In this document: in pieces, positions 1,826 through 24,295 of the stretch
Layout: each line of letters opens with the position of its first letter
Numbering within the stretch: position 1 is the first letter of the stretch
Source of the DNA: Nannochloropsis salina CCMP1776
Lineage: Eukaryota > Sar > Eustigmatophyceae > Eustigmatales > Monodopsidaceae
Assembly (NCBI GenBank): GCA_004565275.1
Contig: SDOX01000011.1
Span: forward strand, 643,881-707,880
Reading direction: 5' to 3'
DNA: 64,000 nucleotides
Position numbers and translations under genes: made by a program
The notes under the pieces: generated by a model
Databases searched by the model: none
Told to the model about the DNA's origin: nothing
Seen by the model: only the letters and a program-made list of their open reading frames with translations

Positions 1826-4800
1826 ATGTCCAAAAAAGGGGACGGTGGCAACATTGAAGCGAACAATAGTAGGGGCCCGACGAATGGTGCATCGAGCAGT
1901 ACCAGCCGGCGACCGGGGCGGAATTATGCCAATGCCAGTCAAGCCGCGCGGCTGCAGAAGTCCCAAAAAGCATCGGCGTCCCGATATCGCGCCCGACAAG
2001 CGGGTGACGAATTCGACATTCGCTTTGGTTATTCACGCTTCGAAGAAGGCTCGCCGCGTTTGGGTTGGTTGCTGGACATGAACGCATCCACGGTGCCCGA
2101 CGAGGAAGGCCGAGAGCGCTCAGGCATGGACCTGTACTTTTTGCAACAGGATGGTGATACATTCAAGGTTACCACATTTTATGAGCCTTACTTCTATATA
2201 GGCTTGCGAGATGATCGTTATATAGCAGAGGTGATGCAGCTTTTGCAGCGAAAATTCGATCAGGTCGGAATGACCATCCTGGCTTGCGACAAGGAGGACC
2301 TGGACCTGCCCAACCACCTGTCGGGGAAGCTACACCGCTTCCTTCGCTTGTCCTTTTTCAACGTCTCTGAACTTATGGACGTTCGTTCTGTCCTCTTGCC
2401 ACTGGTGGAGCGCAATAAGCAGCGGATGGCAGTAGGGTTGGCCGGCGACGCGCGAGAGGGAGGAATGGAGGGCCTTGGGCCCGGCTCTGGCGCCCGGCCA
2501 CCCGACGACTTCTTCGAGACCTTGGTGGACATTCGGGAGTATGATGTGCCCTATGTAGTACGCGTGGCTATTGACTTAGACCTTCGCGTCGGGGCGTGGT
2601 ACACGGTCACGGCGCGCGGGGAGCACGTGGCGCTCAAGTGGGAGAAAGACATCATCGAGAAGGCCGAGCCCCGAGTGCTCGCCTTCGACATCGAATGTAC
2701 CAAAGCTCCCCTCAAATTTCCAGACGCGAACGTTGACCAGATCTTCATGATATCTTACATGGTGGACGGGCAGGGCTACCTTCTCATCAACCGGGAGGTG
2801 GTGGGGGAGGACATCCAGGACTTCGAGTACACGCCTAAACCCGCCTACGCCGGGCCCTTCACGGTCGTGAATGTGCCGGACGAGGAAGCGGTCCTTCGAG
2901 AATTTATCCGACACGTGCAAGAGCTGCGGCCGCAGATCTTCGTCACCTACAACGGAGACTACTTCGACTGGCCCTTCATGGAAACGCGCATGGAGGCGCA
3001 CGGGATCGAGATGTCGACGGAAATCGGGGTGGCGGAGTCCCAGGGAGAGTATCGGGGCCGGGCTGCGGTGCATTTGGATGCCTTCCACTGGGTGAAGCGG
3101 GACTCCTACCTCCCGCAAGGGGCCCAGGGACTCAAGGCCGTGACCAAGTACAAGCTGGGCTACGACCCCGTGGAGGTCGATCCCGAGGACATGGTCCGCT
3201 TCGCCCACGAACGCGCCACCGAGATGGCTTCCTACTCGGTCTCGGACGCCGTGGCTACGTACTACCTCTACACCACCTACGTGCACAACTTCATCTTCTC
3301 CCTCAGCACCATCATCCCCATGAAGGCGGAGGATGTGCTACGCAAGGGCTCGGGCACGCTCTGCGAGACCCTCCTGATGGTGGAAGCCTTCAGGGGCAAC
3401 ATCGTCTGCCCGAACAAGCAGGTGGAGGCGCCCATGCGCTTCCACAAGGGACACCTTTTGGAGAGCGAGACGTATGTGGGTGGCCACGTGGAGTGCCTGG
3501 AGACAGGCGTCTACCGGTCTGACATCGACTACAAGTTCCGGCTGGTGCCCAGCGCCCTCCAAGCTCTCATTGACAACGTGGACCGGGACCTGCGGTTCGC
3601 CGTGGAAGTGGAGGGCCATGCCAGGGTGGAGAACGTGGTCAACTACGCCGAGGTCAAGGCGGAGATCATCGAGCGGCTGGCGGAACTCCGAGACACGCCG
3701 CTGCGGGACGAACCCCCCTTGATCTACCATCTCGACGTCGGAGCCATGTACCCAAACATCATCTTGACGAACCGGCTCCAGCCTTGCTCGATCGTGGACC
3801 AGTCCGACTGCGCGGCCTGCGACTTCAACCAGGAGAAGAACCAATGCAAACGGCCCATGAAATGGGTGTGGCGCGGCGACCACCTGCCAGCCACGCGGTC
3901 GGACTTCGAGCAGGTACAGGTCCAGCTGGCTTATGAGAGGACGAGCACAGGGGAGGCCTATCATGCCTTGGACCGCGCAGAACAGACCCGAAAGCTGCGG
4001 GAGCGCCTGAAGCTGTACTCGCACAAAGTATACAAGAAAACAAAAGTGACCGCCCAGGAAGAAAGAGAAGACACTGTCTGCATGCGGGAAAATCCCTTTT
4101 ACGTGAACACTGTGCGGGCGTTCAGGGACCGACGCTATGAGTACAAAGTTCTGACGAAAAAATGGAAGAGCGTGAAGCTCAAGGCCGAAGCCTCCGACGA
4201 TGCCTTGGGCCGGAAGGCGGCGGAGGACAAAGAAACGGTCTTCGATTCCTTGCAGCTTGCTCACAAGTGCATTCTGAACTCTTTCTACGGATATGTCATG
4301 CGGAAAGGCGCGCGATGGCGCTCTATGGAAATGGCGGGGATCGTGACGGACACGGGGGCCCGCCTGATCACGCAAGCGCGAGAGCTGATGGAGCAGATCG
4401 GGCGCCCCTTGGAGCTCGACACGGACGGGATCTGGTGCATTCTCCCGGTTTCTTTTCCCGAGAACTTCACCCTTCTGACTGCGGCCGGCAAGAAGATCCC
4501 TTTGTCCTACCCCTGCGTCATGCTGAACGCGGATGTGCACGAGAGGTACACCAACCACCAGTACCAAGACCTTGTCGATCCTGCCACGCACCGCTACGCC
4601 ACCCATTCGGAATGCTCCATTTTCTTCGAGGTCGACGGCCCCTACCGTTGCATGGTCCTCCCGTCCTCCACTGAGGAGGGCAAACTTCTGAAAAAGCGGT
4701 ACGCCGTCTTTAACAAAGACGGGTCCCTGGCCGAGTTGAAAGGCTTTGAGCTGAAGCGTCGTGGAGAGCTGGAACTGATCAAGGCCTTTCAAGGCCAGGT

Positions 4801-7800
4801 TTTCGAATGCTTCTTGAAAGGGAGCACGTTGGAGGAGTGCTACAATGCGGTGGGCGATATCGCTAATTTCTGGCTGGATGTGCTGGACTCGCGGGGAGAG
4901 GAACTGGATGACGAGGAGGTGGTGGGCTTGATCTCGGAGAACAAGACCATCTCCAAGACGCTGGACCAATACGGCGACCAAAAGGGGGCGTCTTTGACCA
5001 CGGCCAGTCGCCTGGCGGATTTCCTCGGACCGGACATGGTGAAGGACAAGGGCTTGAACTGCCGTCTCGTCATCGCCAATCGACCCCACGGCGCACCTGT
5101 CACGGAGCGTGCCATTCCCACCGCCATTTTCTCCACGGAGCCGGGCGTTCGCAAGCATTTTCTTCGAAAGTGGTTGAAGGACAGCGCCATGTCCGATTTC
5201 GACATCCGCTCTCTGATCGACTGGGACTATTACAAGGAGCGGTTGGGGAAGTCGATACAAAAGATCATCACCATCCCAGCTGCCATGCAAAAGGTGCCTA
5301 ATCCTGTTCCTCGTGTCCTGCACCCTGACTGGCTCGATAAGAAGATCCGAGAGCTCACAGATGGGTACCGTCAGCTCAAGATCAGTAACCTTTTTGCTGC
5401 GGAAGAAAATGCAGAGGGGGGTGTTGGAACCCCCGGTAAGCACGCATTGATGGATATTGAGGACACGATGGGAGGCTTGAGTCGGGGCAAAGGATCAGCG
5501 TTGAAACCTTACACTGCTGTGGTACGTCGGGTAGGCCGGAAACTGGACGAGGAGGGTCACGACGAGAATGACAGCACGGAGGCCAATGGGAAGATCGGTC
5601 AGGACGCCGCTGTTGAGGATAAGCCGAGGCCGATCCAGGAGGCGAAAGCGGTGGGAGAATCCGCGGGGATGCCTGCCTCCCGGAAACATTGCCCGGCCAT
5701 TAGGGAGGATTTCCAAGGGTGGCTGGCCTACCGTAAGGCCCAGTGGCGGGAAGGGCGCATGGAGCGGCGGCTGGAGGCTCGGGGTCGACGGGGGGCGGTG
5801 GGCAACCGTCGTCCCCGACATGGTGAGGGTGTCGAGCCGGGCACGCGGGGCGTGACAAAACGGCAAAATGTGGCGTCTTTTCTGAAGGGCGCGGCGTTGG
5901 CCGTAACACAGGGTTGCTGGCAGGTGATAGAAATCCGAGAATCGGAGCTACCCGGTGAATTTGTGGTCTGGGCGATGACAGGGCAAAAATCGATGCAGCG
6001 CTTGCACCTGAAGGTTCATCGCACCATGTACATCACCAGCAACATGGAAGACGAGGTCGGCTTCCAGAAGATCAAGGGTCGGAGAGTGACGCGCTTCCTT
6101 CCCCACGGGTACCGCAGCCCCTACACGTACGAGGTGACCATGGACGAGCGGCGTTTCTTGAGCAACGAAAACAACCTGGCGCGGTGGCTCTCCACCGCCG
6201 GCGTCACGGGGGTCTACGAGCTGCAGACTCCCCTGTGGTTCCGAGCCATCGCCAAGGTAGGCTGTCTGGCCCAAGTGAGCAGCCGGTACCAGGGTGGCGC
6301 GGGCGGGGGGAAAAGCGGAAGCCGGGCGTTCAGACTGGAGGATCTGGAAAGCCTGTCCACCGCCTCCATGCCCTACCTGCACCCGAGCACAGCCGTCTTC
6401 CGCAATTTGTACGTGTACATCTCGCAATCGGCACGACGTGCGGTGGTGGCTCTCTTCGTCCTGGGGGGCGACAACCGGGACTTGGAGCTCGAGAGTGCCG
6501 ATGCCGCGAACTCTGTGCACTCGATGCAAGCCACGGCGCAGGTCTGGCTGGCGAACCCCTTTTCCACCGCCGAGGCACGCCCGCCCCTGAAGCGATTCTT
6601 TGCCAGGTATGCGCCCCCGGGAATGGCCTGCACGTTCTCCTCTACATACGTGGCGAGTTTGAAAAGTGCGTTGGCGCAACTGAACGCGGCACTGACGGGT
6701 TACATTCAAGAGCGACATGGGCCGACGGTCGTGCTCTCCCAATCAGTGCTCGACCTCTCCATTCTCCGACGCTCCGTCCCAGCCTTGAACGATCTGCCTG
6801 TTGTGAGCATGCCGAGTAACGCCGACGACAATCGGTACCCAGCTCTCAGTTGGCAGTCCTACTCGACCCAGCGCATGATCCAACGCTTTTTGTGCATGCC
6901 CGGGTGGCTACAAGACCGTCTTCAGGCGGCGCGTTATTCCCACCTGCCCCTGGGGAATCTAGGCCTGGACCCGCAGCGGACCATGGCAGATGTGCTCCTG
7001 GGCCGGCTTTTGCACGGGAACCGGCACGTCTTGTGGGCGTCCGAGGGCACTCGCCCCGATCTGGGCGGGGCGGAGGACGACCAGAACGACGCCTGGGCCG
7101 ACGAAGCCTCCAACCCCGTCATCCGAGTCCCGGGCGCCTACCGAAAGGTATGTATCGAACTGGAGATAGAAGGCCTGGCCGTGCTCAGCATGCTGAGTGC
7201 CGCAGAGCTTGAAGAGATGGATGGAGCACAGGGGCTCGCCACATCAGACGTGGCACAGGGGAATGGCGGTGTGGCTGGCCCCGGGATGGAGAGCGCGGGT
7301 GCAGGTGGGGGCGACGACCGTGCCTGCGCCAGTGCATTCCGGCTCCTGCGCGTCTTGGTCGAGACCTGGATGGGGGAAGTGGAGAGGGTGGGAAGCCTGC
7401 AAGCAGACGCGCTGGCCACGAACTTCTGGCGGTGGATGTGCGACGCGGACTCCCTCTTCTACGACCCGGCCTTGCGCCGGCTCTGCCTGATGCTCATCAA
7501 CAAGTACTTCCACCGGCTGGTCGCAGAAATGCGGCGCTTGGGGGCGCAGGTCATCTTTGCCAACGCCCAACGCATCATGATCGCCACGAACAAGGAGGAC
7601 ATGGCTTCGGCCCACGAATACGCCAGCTTCGTCCTTCGCACCGTCCTCTCCCGCCGGATCTTCTCCCGCCTGCAGATCACGCCCGTGCGCTACTGGTGGC
7701 AGCTCTTCTTCTTCGACGAGCATAATTTCGGCGGCCTCGGGTACAAAGACCCGGAGGCAGCAGCTGCTCACCGCGCTGCCCTCAAGGCGGCCGCCGCCGC

Positions 7801-9334
7801 GGAGGCTCGAGAGGCGGCGGAGAGGGCGGCAGCCATCGCGGCCGCCGAGGAGGCCGTGGCTCTGGCGGCAGTTGAGGAGGCGGAGGCGAGGCGCAAGATG
7901 CGACGGGAAGGGCGGGGAGGGGGGGGGAAGGGCAGGAGAGGAGACAGGGATGGGGTGGAGGAGGACGTGGAGGAGGAGGAGGAGGAGGAGGAGGACGACG
8001 ACGAGAGCGAAGGGGAAGAATGGGACGGTGGGGGTATGTTGGGCAAGAAACGGGCGTCTGTCGGGGGAGGAGCGGACGAGCAGAGCAAGGAGGAGTCCGC
8101 TGCCCTGTCTCAGTCCGATGCACGCCGTCGCCGTGTTGTGGAGGAGGAGGAGGAGGAGGAGGGAGAGGAGGTGGTAGGGAGTCAAAGCTCGACGGAGGGT
8201 ACTGGATCTGCTCTGGTACAAGGTCGAGCAAAGAGTCGCCTGGAAGAGGTGGGAGAAGAAATCAGCGACGACGGGGCAGGCTCACTTCGCGGGGAAGAGG
8301 AAGGAGAGGCGGACGTCGATGAGGAGGACTACGACCTGCAGAGCCACTGGGACATGCTCAACTATTTGCCTGCCGCGCTCAGGCACCCTTTCGACTACGT
8401 CGTGGCCACCATGCTGGCCGACCATTTGCGCGAAGAGCGCGACCGTAAGGAGCATCGGAGGGAGCGACTGTCAGCATTGGGAAACCGGCTGCTGGGAACA
8501 AGTCAGGGCCAGGAGGCGGAGGCGGAGGAAGAAGTCGAAATGCTGCAGAAGGAGGAGGAGAATCACGAAAGGAGCATGGTTAGGTTCCTGCAGAAGATGG
8601 TGGAGGGCCGGCTGACACGCACCCTCCTCCGGACGGTGCAAGACATCGACAACGAGTTCCGGGGGCCCGAGTGCTTCCCGGCGACGGTGGGCGTCCACCG
8701 GCAGTCGACTACGCCGGCCTTGGAGTTCGTCAAGGTCGTGTGCGGTCTTCTCAAGCTGGACTCGGCCGTGGAGGAACAAGTGGTGGTCCTTCGCCGCCAG
8801 CTCCTGGCCCAGCTTGGCGCGAAAGAGTTCTCGGAGCAGGGTCTCTCCGAGGACTACTGTCGTTCTTTCGTGGTGCCCGACCTTATCTGCGCGTTCTGCA
8901 GCCATTGCCGGGACTTGGACTTGTGCCGCGACGAACAGCTCTTGAGCGAGGACCCGGACCAGTGGTGGCGCTGTCCCCATTGCGCGAACCGTTACGACGT
9001 GGACCGCGTGGAGCAGCTTCTCATCACAGCGGTCGAGCGACAGGTCACTCGGTACGCCCTCCAAGATCTTCGGTGCGTGAACTGCCGACGCGTAAGCACT
9101 TTATCCATGAGCGAGGTTTGTAAATGCTCAGGCCGGTTGGTCGGCGACGAGAAGCCGTCCGAATTCCAGGACCTCATGGCGACACTTCGTCGCATAGCTC
9201 TCCAGTACTCGCTCGCGGGGCTGAAGGAAGCCGTAGATTTCGCGTTGCGCATTGCCCCAGATACCGAGATAAAGCATGATCTTGATGATTTACAACATCA
9301 ATTTCAGCAGCAACAGTCTTTCGTCTCCAACTGA
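1826..9334 (+). CDS. POLE: DNA polymerase epsilon catalytic subunit A
   Basis: This is the leading-strand replicative polymerase of family B, 2502 aa in a single exon; human POLE is about 2290 aa. The N-terminal domain is followed by a proofreading exonuclease with the Exo I DIE triad (FDIECT, about residue 287), Exo II (YNGDYFDWPF, about 375) and Exo III (YSVSDAVATYYLY, about 470). Polymerase motif A reads DVGAMYPNI (about 635), motif B KCILNSFYGY (about 815) and motif C ELDTDGIWC (about 864). The cysteines typical of the epsilon Fe-S site follow motif A (CAACDF...C). The C-terminus has the inactive second polymerase half and two Cys modules (CAFCSHC...CPHC and CVNC...CKC, about 2355-2435) that bind POLE2. 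The extra length is an Ala-rich then Glu/Asp-rich stretch at about residues 1975-2170. The ATG at 1826 is the first in-frame one and is followed by a normal POLE N-terminus. Confidence 0.97.
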   Translation: MSKKGDGGNIEANNSRGPTNGASSSTSRRPGRNYANASQAARLQKSQKASASRYRARQAGDEFDIRFGYSRFEEGSPRLGWLLDMNASTVPDEEGRERSGMDLYFLQQDGDTFKVTTFYEPYFYIGLRDDRYIAEVMQLLQRKFDQVGMTILACDKEDLDLPNHLSGKLHRFLRLSFFNVSELMDVRSVLLPLVERNKQRMAVGLAGDAREGGMEGLGPGSGARPPDDFFETLVDIREYDVPYVVRVAIDLDLRVGAWYTVTARGEHVALKWEKDIIEKAEPRVLAFDIECTKAPLKFPDANVDQIFMISYMVDGQGYLLINREVVGEDIQDFEYTPKPAYAGPFTVVNVPDEEAVLREFIRHVQELRPQIFVTYNGDYFDWPFMETRMEAHGIEMSTEIGVAESQGEYRGRAAVHLDAFHWVKRDSYLPQGAQGLKAVTKYKLGYDPVEVDPEDMVRFAHERATEMASYSVSDAVATYYLYTTYVHNFIFSLSTIIPMKAEDVLRKGSGTLCETLLMVEAFRGNIVCPNKQVEAPMRFHKGHLLESETYVGGHVECLETGVYRSDIDYKFRLVPSALQALIDNVDRDLRFAVEVEGHARVENVVNYAEVKAEIIERLAELRDTPLRDEPPLIYHLDVGAMYPNIILTNRLQPCSIVDQSDCAACDFNQEKNQCKRPMKWVWRGDHLPATRSDFEQVQVQLAYERTSTGEAYHALDRAEQTRKLRERLKLYSHKVYKKTKVTAQEEREDTVCMRENPFYVNTVRAFRDRRYEYKVLTKKWKSVKLKAEASDDALGRKAAEDKETVFDSLQLAHKCILNSFYGYVMRKGARWRSMEMAGIVTDTGARLITQARELMEQIGRPLELDTDGIWCILPVSFPENFTLLTAAGKKIPLSYPCVMLNADVHERYTNHQYQDLVDPATHRYATHSECSIFFEVDGPYRCMVLPSSTEEGKLLKKRYAVFNKDGSLAELKGFELKRRGELELIKAFQGQVFECFLKGSTLEECYNAVGDIANFWLDVLDSRGEELDDEEVVGLISENKTISKTLDQYGDQKGASLTTASRLADFLGPDMVKDKGLNCRLVIANRPHGAPVTERAIPTAIFSTEPGVRKHFLRKWLKDSAMSDFDIRSLIDWDYYKERLGKSIQKIITIPAAMQKVPNPVPRVLHPDWLDKKIRELTDGYRQLKISNLFAAEENAEGGVGTPGKHALMDIEDTMGGLSRGKGSALKPYTAVVRRVGRKLDEEGHDENDSTEANGKIGQDAAVEDKPRPIQEAKAVGESAGMPASRKHCPAIREDFQGWLAYRKAQWREGRMERRLEARGRRGAVGNRRPRHGEGVEPGTRGVTKRQNVASFLKGAALAVTQGCWQVIEIRESELPGEFVVWAMTGQKSMQRLHLKVHRTMYITSNMEDEVGFQKIKGRRVTRFLPHGYRSPYTYEVTMDERRFLSNENNLARWLSTAGVTGVYELQTPLWFRAIAKVGCLAQVSSRYQGGAGGGKSGSRAFRLEDLESLSTASMPYLHPSTAVFRNLYVYISQSARRAVVALFVLGGDNRDLELESADAANSVHSMQATAQVWLANPFSTAEARPPLKRFFARYAPPGMACTFSSTYVASLKSALAQLNAALTGYIQERHGPTVVLSQSVLDLSILRRSVPALNDLPVVSMPSNADDNRYPALSWQSYSTQRMIQRFLCMPGWLQDRLQAARYSHLPLGNLGLDPQRTMADVLLGRLLHGNRHVLWASEGTRPDLGGAEDDQNDAWADEASNPVIRVPGAYRKVCIELEIEGLAVLSMLSAAELEEMDGAQGLATSDVAQGNGGVAGPGMESAGAGGGDDRACASAFRLLRVLVETWMGEVERVGSLQADALATNFWRWMCDADSLFYDPALRRLCLMLINKYFHRLVAEMRRLGAQVIFANAQRIMIATNKEDMASAHEYASFVLRTVLSRRIFSRLQITPVRYWWQLFFFDEHNFGGLGYKDPEAAAAHRAALKAAAAAEAREAAERAAAIAAAEEAVALAAVEEAEARRKMRREGRGGGGKGRRGDRDGVEEDVEEEEEEEEDDDESEGEEWDGGGMLGKKRASVGGGADEQSKEESAALSQSDARRRRVVEEEEEEEGEEVVGSQSSTEGTGSALVQGRAKSRLEEVGEEISDDGAGSLRGEEEGEADVDEEDYDLQSHWDMLNYLPAALRHPFDYVVATMLADHLREERDRKEHRRERLSALGNRLLGTSQGQEAEAEEEVEMLQKEEENHERSMVRFLQKMVEGRLTRTLLRTVQDIDNEFRGPECFPATVGVHRQSTTPALEFVKVVCGLLKLDSAVEEQVVVLRRQLLAQLGAKEFSEQGLSEDYCRSFVVPDLICAFCSHCRDLDLCRDEQLLSEDPDQWWRCPHCANRYDVDRVEQLLITAVERQVTRYALQDLRCVNCRRVSTLSMSEVCKCSGRLVGDEKPSEFQDLMATLRRIALQYSLAGLKEAVDFALRIAPDTEIKHDLDDLQHQFQQQQSFVSN
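7750..8330 (+). repeat. Low-complexity Ala/Glu-coding tract inside POLE
   Basis: GCG/GCC-rich sequence encoding alanine runs passes into GAG/GAC repeats encoding several Glu/Asp blocks. This part of the C-terminal half is not conserved in POLE and is probably a disordered linker. It generates long spurious open frames on the other strand. Confidence 0.8.
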
Positions 9335-19628: not shown

Positions 19629-20243
19629 TCAAAATTCAATTCTAGCAGTACCCAATTGAACTTGACGTAACTTCTCGACCACGCCCTCGTTCTGTGTAAC
19701 AGACACCGGCACCTCAAAATAGGCAGGCTTCACTACCATGGGCCCGTTCTGCTTGCATCCAGTCGCCTCGCAGAAGCGGTTCGTGTACTCCACGCAGGAG
19801 GAGCCCGTGACGCCCATGACCTCCAGAGTAAAACCTTGGGTCTCCCAGTTCTCATTCCATTTGATCTCAAGGACCACTTGCCCCTCCTCGCGAAGACGAG
19901 CTTCGTTCACGGGAGGAAATCCATTTGTGTAGGTGCGGTACACAAGCCCTCCGATTATCTCAACCTCCTCCCCTGGAAGCACGTCGAGAACGCGTCCATC
20001 CGGAACCTTCACTTGCGCAGGGCCTCGCACCACATTTTTCCCTTTGTTATCAATAAATTCATGTACGAATTTTAGTTTGTCGTCCGAAATAAGTGATTCT
20101 CCGCTGCTGTCAGTAAACCAGTTATTACTCATTTGCAACGGCAGTACAGTCGAGAAGCGGCAAAGAGAAGACGTGCGACACCCAAACATAAATGCACAAG
20201 TTGGAGACATAGCTAGCAGTATAACGAGAGATGGCAGCAGCAT
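19629..20243 (-). CDS. Plastid-targeted protein of unknown function
   Basis: This is a 204-aa single-exon protein. Residues 1-18 form a hydrophobic signal peptide (MLLPSLVILLAMSPTCAF), with Phe at the predicted cleavage site and a following Arg/Ser-rich transit region, as in plastid proteins of stramenopiles. The mature part has a compact beta-rich look: VKVPDGRVLDVLPGEEVEI, then VYRTYTNGFPP. Two paired cysteines follow in CVEYTNRFCEATGC. No known family was recognised. It ends with LRQVQLGTARIEF. It is divergent from the 7TM-kinase gene, 486 bases away, which need not mean shared function. Confidence 0.7.
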   Translation of the reverse strand: MLLPSLVILLAMSPTCAFMFGCRTSSLCRFSTVLPLQMSNNWFTDSSGESLISDDKLKFVHEFIDNKGKNVVRGPAQVKVPDGRVLDVLPGEEVEIIGGLVYRTYTNGFPPVNEARLREEGQVVLEIKWNENWETQGFTLEVMGVTGSSCVEYTNRFCEATGCKQNGPMVVKPAYFEVPVSVTQNEGVVEKLRQVQLGTARIEF

Positions 20244-20729: not shown

Positions 20730-23042
20730 ATGCACCGATTATTGCGTAGTCCAGCTGCAGACAGGGCGTCGTCAACCGGCACAACACAATTGTCCAACCT
20801 TGACACTTTCAAAAGTCTTGCATACCCACCCATATGCGGGAACCTAAGCAGCGAAGTATCGGGGGGTAGCTACGTGGTCGTCGAGGCTTGCGTCAAGACG
20901 GGGGCAGTCGTGCTCGTTCTTCTTTACATGTACCATCGCAGACGCTCTGTCGAATCTCCCTCTTCCTCGTCTACGTTATCAGCATTGAACTGGTCCGCGG
21001 GGCAGGGTGGTGCCAGCACATCGTTGATCTTCCCTTTTTATTACTCTCTCTTCTACGCCACGGCCTGCGTGGACGTGCTCACGGTTGCGCTCTCCCTCAC
21101 GTTTGGCGGGCACCTGCCCCCGGCAATAGCGGCGCTATGCTGGGCACTGAACCGACTGATCACGGAGGGACTCACGATCTTCCTCTTGCACCACGGGGTG
21201 GGCCTGGCGACTCTTCAGTACAGCTTTACGTATGCCGTCATGTGGGCGCTTGTCTCCTTTTTGGCGTGGTACTGCGTGCCCCTGCTCAGGGCCGATGGGA
21301 ATGCCAACGTAGTCGGGGACGTATTGGCCCTCCTCTACCTGACGCCCCCCCTCATCGGCTACCTGCTCCTCTCCTTCGCCCCCATGAAGGTCCTCCCGCG
21401 TCGTCCGGCCGTCCTCCCCGTCGCCCTCTTCATGTCCGCCGTCTTCGCCGCCCTGGTACTCCGGGAGGCGCTTTTGGCCGCCCACTCTTTCCTTCCGGGC
21501 CCCTGCCTCCTGTGGAGCGCCTGGTCCCTCCTCCTGTGGGCCTGCTTCCCCTGGGTGGTGTACCATGCCCTGGTCGCGGACACGCGCTGGTGGCAAGGCC
21601 TCTACCAGAACCCGCGCGGGTGGGCGGGGAACCTGAACACCCCCCTCCTCGACGTCTGGAGCGACGGGCTGCTGGACGTGCCTGCCTCGGAGCTAGCCAC
21701 CCTCATGCACCAGCTGGAGACGGAGCCCGGGGCCGGCCTTCCCGCCCCCGTCCACAACCCCTCCAGCCCTGCTTCCTCTCCCTCGCCCAGGCCCTCCCCA
21801 CCCGCCGACGCCGGCCCCGCCCTTGTCGCCTCTGGGCGCGTCCCCATCGTTCCCTTCGGCCAGCTTCGACTGCGGACGGACTTGCGCTACCGGTCGGGCA
21901 GCAACTCGCGCGTCTACGTCGGGGAGTGGAACGGGCGGCGGGTGGCTGTGAAGATGCTTTTCTCGATGGAACTCGATAGGGCCATCCTCCAGGCCTTCGT
22001 GCAGGAGGCCCGCCTTTTGTACGGCCTGCGGAGGCACCCCAACATCCTACGGTGTCTGGGCGTGGCCATCATGCCTCCCGCTGCCTGCTTGGTCACCGAG
22101 TTCTGCGAGCACGGGTCGCTCTTCGACTTCCTCCGCCGGTTCCGGCAGCAAGAGCTGAGGCGGGAGCGGCAGCGAAGGTGTCGAGGGCAAGCGCAACGAA
22201 GACCCCAGGTTCTGACAAAAACAGGCAGGAACGGGGAAGCGGAGGCTCCTGTGAACGACTGTGCCAAGGGGGAGATAGCGAAGGAGGAGGAGGGAGAGGA
22301 GGAAGAGAAGGAAGAGGTGGAGGACGGGGGGGAGGAAGAGGAGGAAGAGGGGGCTGACACCGAGTTGCTGCTAGAGAAGGCGCAGCGCGCACGGACGAGG
22401 AGCTCTTTGGAGCCCAACGGGCTGGAGCCCCCCCTGCCCTCCCAGCTGCCCCTCTCCCGCCGGTTGGAGCTGATGGTGGAGTGCGCGGCCGGGGTCCGCC
22501 ACCTGCACGCACGGGGCCTGGTCCACGGGGATATCAAGTCCCTGAACTTTCTGGTCGACCGGGCGCTGGCGGTCAAGCTGGGCGACGTGGGGGAGTGCAG
22601 GCAGGCGGGATGCGTGCCGGAGGGCGGCTTGCCGATCTTCCCTAGCACCATCAATTGGGCGCCACCGGAGGTCTTGGCGGGAAGCGCCAGGCGGTATCAC
22701 CCCTCCATGGACGTGTATTCCCTGGGTCTGGTCCTGCACGAGCTCATGACCCTAGAGGCGCCTTTCCACCATGAGCCTTTCACTAGGCGCCGGTCTCAGG
22801 ACCTTGTACAACACATCATCCAAGGCGGGCGGCCTTCTTTCCACCGAGGGAGGCTCGCGAACGCGGACGGAGATGGAGGGAATGGAGAAGACAACCGTCT
22901 GTCCCTTCCCGTCCCACCCTCTCTCCAAAAACTCCTCCATCAGTGCTGGCGGGCCGATCCAGCACAGCGGCCCTCGGCGTCTCAGGTTCACGACCATCTT
23001 GTTGAACTTCTGAGGGGTACCGAGGAGGTGAAAGGGGTCTAG
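20730..23042 (+). CDS. Seven-transmembrane protein fused to a TKL-like protein kinase
   Basis: This 770-aa single-exon protein starts at the first in-frame ATG. Seven hydrophobic segments occupy about residues 45-295: VVVEACVKTGAVVLVLLYMY, then YYSLFYATACVDVLTVAL, AAIAALCWALNRLITEG, YAVMWALVSFLAWYCVPLL, VLALLYLTPPLIGYLLLSF, LPVALFMSAVFAALVLREA and LWSAWSLLLWACFPWVVYH. The first helix is followed by HRRR, which places the short N-terminus (with an NLSS glycosylation site) outside and the kinase inside. The kinase domain spans about 376-760: a degenerate glycine loop (SGSNSRVYVGEW), the ATP lysine in VAVKML, HGDIKSLNFLVD as catalytic loop, GDVGE in place of DFG, and PPE for APE. The key Lys and both Asp residues are kept, so activity is plausible. 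A Glu-rich insert of about 100 aa lies before the catalytic loop. The architecture resembles receptor-kinase fusions of protists; the ligand is unknown. Confidence 0.85.
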   Translation: MHRLLRSPAADRASSTGTTQLSNLDTFKSLAYPPICGNLSSEVSGGSYVVVEACVKTGAVVLVLLYMYHRRRSVESPSSSSTLSALNWSAGQGGASTSLIFPFYYSLFYATACVDVLTVALSLTFGGHLPPAIAALCWALNRLITEGLTIFLLHHGVGLATLQYSFTYAVMWALVSFLAWYCVPLLRADGNANVVGDVLALLYLTPPLIGYLLLSFAPMKVLPRRPAVLPVALFMSAVFAALVLREALLAAHSFLPGPCLLWSAWSLLLWACFPWVVYHALVADTRWWQGLYQNPRGWAGNLNTPLLDVWSDGLLDVPASELATLMHQLETEPGAGLPAPVHNPSSPASSPSPRPSPPADAGPALVASGRVPIVPFGQLRLRTDLRYRSGSNSRVYVGEWNGRRVAVKMLFSMELDRAILQAFVQEARLLYGLRRHPNILRCLGVAIMPPAACLVTEFCEHGSLFDFLRRFRQQELRRERQRRCRGQAQRRPQVLTKTGRNGEAEAPVNDCAKGEIAKEEEGEEEEKEEVEDGGEEEEEEGADTELLLEKAQRARTRSSLEPNGLEPPLPSQLPLSRRLELMVECAAGVRHLHARGLVHGDIKSLNFLVDRALAVKLGDVGECRQAGCVPEGGLPIFPSTINWAPPEVLAGSARRYHPSMDVYSLGLVLHELMTLEAPFHHEPFTRRRSQDLVQHIIQGGRPSFHRGRLANADGDGGNGEDNRLSLPVPPSLQKLLHQCWRADPAQRPSASQVHDHLVELLRGTEEVKGV

Positions 23043-23581: not shown

Positions 23582-23933
23582 ATGTCCTCCCTCCTCATTG
23601 GCAGTGGCAATACGAGAACGACCGCCTTGCGTCGAGGTCCCTACAACCGCACGCGTGAAGATAACAAAGCAGTTTACTGCCAGAAATGCAATGCACCCGG
23701 CCATTGGACCTACGAGTGTAAGAGTGCCCGGCACTACCAGAAACGAGTAAGCAAGAGCGCCATTCTCGAGCATCCTGAGCTCCAACCTTCTTTTTCGCTG
23801 GAGGTACCTCCAGGATATATGACCAAGGAAGATAAAACAGCCAAAATGTTGGGAAAGGTGGGGGATGAGCGAGAGAAAGCCAAAGGCGCAAAGGCGTCCG
23901 ATAAGAAACAAACCGGGAAGCGCCGTCGGTCTC

Positions 23934-23979
<46 letters not shown>

Positions 23980-24295
23980 CTCTTCTTCTTCGTCCTCCTC
24001 ATCATCTTCTTCCTCTTCATCTTCATCTTCATCTTCATCTTCATCTTCATCTTCATCTTCATCTTCTTCCTCATCATCATCTTCTTCTTCTTCTTCTTCT
24101 TCCTCCTCCTCTTCTGTTTCCTCATCTTCTTCCTCCTCCTCTTCTCATTCATCTTCCTCCTCTTCAGTTTCCAGTAGCGGTGAAGAGTCTGATAGTAACA
24201 CTTCAAGCAGCAGCAGTAGGAGAAGTCGGAGGAGTAGTAATAGTAGCAGTAGTCGAGGCACCGTCCTCTACTCTGAGAATTACGAGCGAGGTTGA
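23582..24295 (+). CDS. ZCCHC10-like zinc-knuckle protein with poly-serine tail
   Basis: The 237-aa product has a single CCHC zinc knuckle, CQKCNAPGHWTYEC, at about residues 32-45, followed by KSARHYQKRVSKSAILEHPE. This matches the ZCCHC10 family, whose members pair one knuckle with a serine-rich tail and are thought to be RNA-associated nuclear proteins. Here the tail is extreme: roughly 75 almost uninterrupted serines, then a mixed Ser/Arg/Asp end with SRRSRRSS, resembling RS domains of splicing factors. The ATG at 23582 is the first in frame. A link to splicing is inference. Confidence 0.8.
23935..24170 (+). repeat. TCN trinucleotide and CTTCAT hexanucleotide repeat encoding poly-Ser
   Basis: Runs of TCC, TCT and TCA codons encode the serine tract of the zinc-knuckle protein. 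The segment at about 24014-24066 is a regular CTTCAT hexamer array. Such arrays change length by replication slippage; multiples of three keep the frame. Confidence 0.9.

Follow-up and report, generated by a model that had tools for sequence, protein, structure and literature searches.

Proteins that join an N-terminal seven-transmembrane (7TM) domain to a C-terminal TKL kinase, termed GPCR-TKLs or GPCR-bigrams, have been described from oomycetes and amoebozoans (PMC5784254, PMC6033456), and models such as phosphorylation of the receptor for arrestin recruitment have been discussed (PMC6033456). The 2018 inventory of GPCRs was built mainly by topology, i.e., from proteins with 5-9 transmembrane (TM) segments after removal of known transporters and channels; it lists 17 GPCR-TKLs for Phytophthora infestans, with two proteins like them for Dictyostelium, and its passages on the family see 'no evidence' that other taxa have any (PMC5784254). 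Nannochloropsis gaditana was covered by that survey, which in the same passages reports GPCR-TKLs from oomycetes and amoebozoans only, so that the gene discussed here would extend them to an alga. The survey also places proteins of another kind, GPCR-INPP, in N. gaditana and oomycetes (PMC5784254). In acanthoecid choanoflagellates a cluster of 176 receptors has been reported, 92 of them with a kinase, in a paper whose relevant sections argue for repeated independent 7TM-kinase fusions and state that, to its authors' knowledge, no 7TM-kinase receptor has been functionally characterised (PMC12716839). These passages agree with a preliminary description of the present locus, according to which 7TM-kinases are rare outside protists (PMC5784254, PMC12716839). 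A search of open-access literature yielded no account of a 7TM-TKL from an ochrophyte alga.

The gene studied here lies in a window of 64,000 nucleotides (the whole stretch of DNA analysed, 55% G+C); its product is probably a receptor kinase of the membrane, built like a GPCR-TKL and encoded by this gene alone. The host is likely a Nannochloropsis/Microchloropsis-like eustigmatophyte. One of its light-harvesting proteins agrees at 205 of 223 residues with VCPI-2 (chain 8zo9_2), from an entry that we take to be of Nannochloropsis oceanica. A bacterial source of the window was rejected on the strength of light-harvesting genes and a G-alpha in the same genome. The gene is one open reading frame (ORF) of 770 amino acids on the plus strand (20730..23042, ATG to TAG), with seven hydrophobic segments, a linker and a kinase domain that retains its catalytic residues, all in one frame. 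The GPCR-TKL reading is drawn from this single frame of 770 codons, whose statistics stay coding-like through the linker, from seven segments with charges that place the kinase in the cytosol, from a kinase nearest, among the matches listed, to CTR1, MAP3K12 and Raf with the catalytic residues retained, from multi-helix inositol-phosphatase proteins at four loci of the same genome, and from the published occurrence of the architecture in three other lineages, as far as the cited passages go. Counted against it are a 7TM part without similarity to Pfam, PDB or the TM parts of the phosphatases, the 54 of 1000 shuffled sequences that yield as many segments, and the glycine loop, HGD and DVG of the kinase.

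By its predicted topology the gene is a GPCR-TKL in the operational sense of 2018, having seven putative segments before the catalytic domain, i.e., within the 5-9 of that definition, though with predictors other than those used in PMC5784254. Like the oomycete and amoebozoan proteins, it combines an N-terminal 7TM domain and a C-terminal TKL kinase in one protein, whereas the host here is apparently a eustigmatophyte alga. It has no DEP domain recognised by Pfam, as in the Dictyostelium members and nine of the 17 of P. infestans (the other eight have DEP), as far as the survey's account of them goes. HGD, DVG and an acidic insert mark the present kinase, a comparison with oomycete GPCR-TKLs made by description only. 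The order of parts is identical to that of the acanthoecid proteins, whose 7TM domains, in the sections cited, likewise group apart from all other eukaryotic GPCRs; these proteins form a large family (176 receptors, 92 with kinase), as opposed to one genome place here (PMC12716839). GPCR-INPP likewise join TM segments to a catalytic domain, and similar proteins seem present in the same genome; however, the enzyme is a phosphatase there and a kinase here, and the TM parts show no detectable similarity.

Around the gene, the window holds a DNA polymerase epsilon catalytic subunit in a single ORF of 2502 amino acids (1826-9334, plus strand), with acidic low-complexity runs resembling those of the kinase insert. 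A divergently oriented ORF of 204 residues (19629-20243, minus strand) lies about 490 bases upstream of the kinase gene; it has no Pfam match, and by eye its N-terminus resembles a signal or plastid-targeting peptide. Downstream come a zinc-knuckle protein that contains a very long run of serines (23582-24295, plus strand) and an ORF of 221 residues with a match to the ion transport domain PF00520 (28839-29504, plus strand), which may be a single exon of some larger cation channel.

A hydropathy scan of residues 1-374 finds seven non-overlapping 19-residue segments with a Kyte-Doolittle mean above 1.3, all within residues 49-277: TM1 (residues 49-67, 20874..20930, followed by YHRRRS), TM2 (107-125, 21048..21104), TM3 (135-153, 21132..21188), TM4 (168-186, 21231..21287), TM5 (198-216, 21321..21377), TM6 (226-244, 21405..21461) and TM7 (259-277, 21504..21560), all on the plus strand, as are the features below. 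An eighth segment above 1.3 (residues 438-456) lies inside the kinase domain. On a second scale, for membrane insertion, these seven take the first places among 15 listed segments (with means of 0.07-0.25, as opposed to at least 0.36 for the other eight), though no mean is negative. Two AlphaFold models made without an alignment, both of low confidence, place seven long helices at the segment positions, one for the whole protein (mean pLDDT 43) and one for residues 33-307 (mean pLDDT 48). When residues 1-374 are shuffled, 54 of 1000 trials still reach seven segments or more at threshold 1.3, which means that their composition is by itself strongly hydrophobic; at 1.6, six segments are observed and two of 1000 shuffles reach six. 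The count of exactly seven, already given in the preliminary description, is in this way well but not overwhelmingly supported. The loops predicted inside hold 3, 0, 3 and 2 lysines and arginines and the outer ones between helices 0, 1 and 1, whilst the N-terminal tail of 48 residues (20730..20873), predicted outside and with one N-x-S sequon at N38, holds 4. These loop charges favour an N-terminus outside, as had been proposed, and a kinase in the cytosol, reached through a putatively cytosolic linker of about 100 residues (278-379, 21561..21866) that has no Pfam match.

The identification of the C-terminal domain as a TKL-type kinase is supported by its sequence relatives. Both PF00069 (E 4.2e-37) and PF07714 (E 1.5e-36) match it, spanning residues 389-756 (21894..22997). 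Out of 1113 PDB matches, the 60 listed are all CTR1, MAP3K12, B-Raf (two as fusion proteins) or Raf-1, which we take to belong to the TKL group; the closest solved kinases among the matches listed are plant CTR1, MAP3K12 and Raf, none of which, to our knowledge, has a seven-helix part. Together, the ORF, the Pfam and PDB matches, the segments and the charges uphold the earlier proposal that a single ORF encodes seven helices and, after them, a cytosolic TKL kinase. Compared with CTR1, HGD replaces HRD (residues 599-601) in the catalytic loop HGDIKSLNFL (599-608, 22524..22553), DVG replaces DFG (619-621, 22584..22592) and PPE replaces APE (645-647), whilst K408 (the ATP lysine), E426, D601 (catalytic), K603, N606, D619 (metal-binding) and R747 are retained. 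The earlier account, which listed these three substitutions and the retention of the ATP lysine together with two catalytic aspartates, is borne out, and by K408, D601 and D619 the domain would count as a candidate active kinase. That account lacked two further features: the glycine loop retains one of the three glycines of CTR1, and an acidic low-complexity insert of about 100 residues (471-575, 22140..22454; aspartate or glutamate at 28 of 105 positions) divides the kinase. Inside the insert lies a candidate in-frame GT-AG intron of 237 bases (22209-22445), which would leave the main conclusion unchanged.

Across the genome (26.5 Mb searched), PF07714 matches 135 places, counted exon by exon and hence in fewer genes. 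The whole protein as query (E up to 1e-5) has 20 other matches, all within residues 531-753, i.e., the second half of the kinase; the 7TM part as query (E up to 1) returns the gene itself only, with a single candidate scored. No homologue was confirmed in a viral collection, with either the whole protein or the 7TM part, or in a prokaryotic one with the 7TM part. None of 22 other kinase genes has at least three TM segments in one frame of at least 150 residues (threshold 1.6), a search covering loci L001-L008 and L011-L029 (some overlapping, a minority of the 135 places) with about 1.5 kb of flank per side, beyond which helices escape it. A profile of inositol polyphosphate phosphatase was used to fetch 20 loci, with several loci per gene, and at six of these at least three TM segments fall in one frame; the phosphatase match is in the same frame at L040, L043, L044 and L047, and the helices of L049 are in a different frame from it. 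Counted on cut-short sequence at a lenient threshold, the TM segments of such loci number 3 to 6, or 8 in a case with a poly-alanine stretch, and never exactly seven. By eye, a late helix bears a recurring DA[VI]I motif at L040, L044, L046 and L047. We regard L040, L043, L044, L046, L047 and L049 as probable multi-helix inositol-phosphatase fusions; they fit, and do not prove, the GPCR-INPP published for N. gaditana in the passages of PMC5784254 cited above. When the TM parts of five proteins linked to a phosphatase are aligned with the 7TM part of the kinase protein, the hhalign probability is at most 0.2%; among these TM parts themselves, however, one of ten pairs is detected as related, so this failure says little. 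A G-alpha match is found at one place above the Pfam cut-off, among six matches, covering profile positions 2-333 of 333 with one internal TGA, probably in an intron; RGS matches occur at two places and arrestin-N at one. A G-protein toolkit thus seems present, and a bypass of G proteins is not forced.

Given these data, three other explanations deserve weighing. That the two halves are separate transcripts, or that introns alter the product, is very improbable. Coding potential, with eleven other long ORFs in the window as the training set, was scored in 24 overlapping blocks of 60 codons, and scores are weak over residues 1-90 and 331-390, whilst a reverse frame equals or exceeds frame 1 in four blocks (1-60, 211-270, 661-720 and 691-750); these observations and the plausible intron in the kinase insert would suit such a misreading. 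Against it, 798 codons are open in frame (28 of them 5′ of the ATG, without a further ATG), frame 1 is the highest-scoring forward frame in 22 of the 24 blocks, with one tie and one lower score (691-750), and the intron, if spliced, would keep both halves joined. Across the linker (residues 241-420), frame 1 is the best forward frame in all five blocks. A chance ORF is ruled out by the kinase match in the same frame together with the coding scores. Somewhat easier to entertain, albeit still unlikely, is that the seven helices form a membrane module of another sort, resembling a transporter or serving as an orphan anchor, and that this module localises the kinase. The receptor-like, GPCR-type character claimed in the preliminary description has the topology in its favour (seven segments and an outside N-terminus), as opposed to Pfam, PDB sequences and Foldseek, which lend it no support: no Pfam family matches residues 1-374 (E up to 5), no PDB sequence matches residues 1-323 (E up to 10), and the low-confidence model of pLDDT 48 has no Foldseek match at E 0.001; the 20 matches at E up to 10 are noise, none being described as a GPCR. 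Nor did we spot by eye any GPCR motif that we could recall. In a divergent protist, though, the lack of recognition by any Pfam GPCR profile is weak evidence, and the Dicty_CAR profile (PF05462), with no match in the genome, has none in any control either, which makes this negative uninformative. Transporter and channel families of Pfam are likewise without a match, no similarity to other non-GPCR membrane proteins was found in these Pfam and PDB searches, and seven segments with the N-terminus outside are what GPCRs have. The helices are best read, from what their sequence suggests, as an orphan 7TM domain, its designation as a GPCR resting on topology.

The remaining explanation, rather improbable in our view, concerns the kinase, which could be a pseudokinase, binding partners or ATP and working as an allosteric scaffold with scarcely any phosphorylation of its own. 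With a single glycine left of three in its glycine loop, and with HGD and DVG, its activity may be weak or absent. In a motif census of the kinase loci fetched, HRD occurs in 18 of 19 hits, the sole HGD being that of the present gene (five of the 22 other genes, L016, L018, L021, L023 and L029, were not matched by the pattern and stand outside the 19); PPE occurs in three of the 18 other hits and is not unusual, the pattern having taken a wrong upstream 'VPE' in the present gene instead of its true PPE. Furthermore, the P. infestans kinome has its largest share of catalytically inactive members among the TKLs, and most of those have TM domains, according to the part of that study concerned with them (PMC3019232). 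On the other hand, the residues usually required for catalysis (K408, D601, N606 and D619) are all retained, and we keep to a receptor with a probably working kinase.

If the GPCR-TKL reading is correct, a seven-helix bundle with its N-terminus outside, presumably in the plasma membrane, would most likely sense an extracellular or membrane cue; a conformational change of the bundle would pass through the cytosolic linker to the kinase which, being of a TKL, Ser/Thr type, may phosphorylate itself or nearby proteins. By such a fusion the signal could, as proposed earlier, bypass G proteins. The earlier view of the protein as an unusual one-protein sensor names the right kind, one that has, however, already been published, in the passages cited from oomycetes, amoebozoans and acanthoecid choanoflagellates (PMC5784254, PMC6033456, PMC12716839); what is new is apparently the lineage. 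A bolder reading, less likely than not, is that a photosynthetic stramenopile independently joined a TKL kinase to a lineage-specific 7TM receptor without kinship to known GPCR families; the resulting receptor kinase would be single-copy and independent of G proteins, and would mark a further convergent origin of 7TM-kinase receptors. A 7TM-kinase encoded at a single place, if indeed in a relative of Nannochloropsis, a lineage that serves as a laboratory alga, would be an easier test of G-protein-free signalling than the many-copy families of oomycetes.
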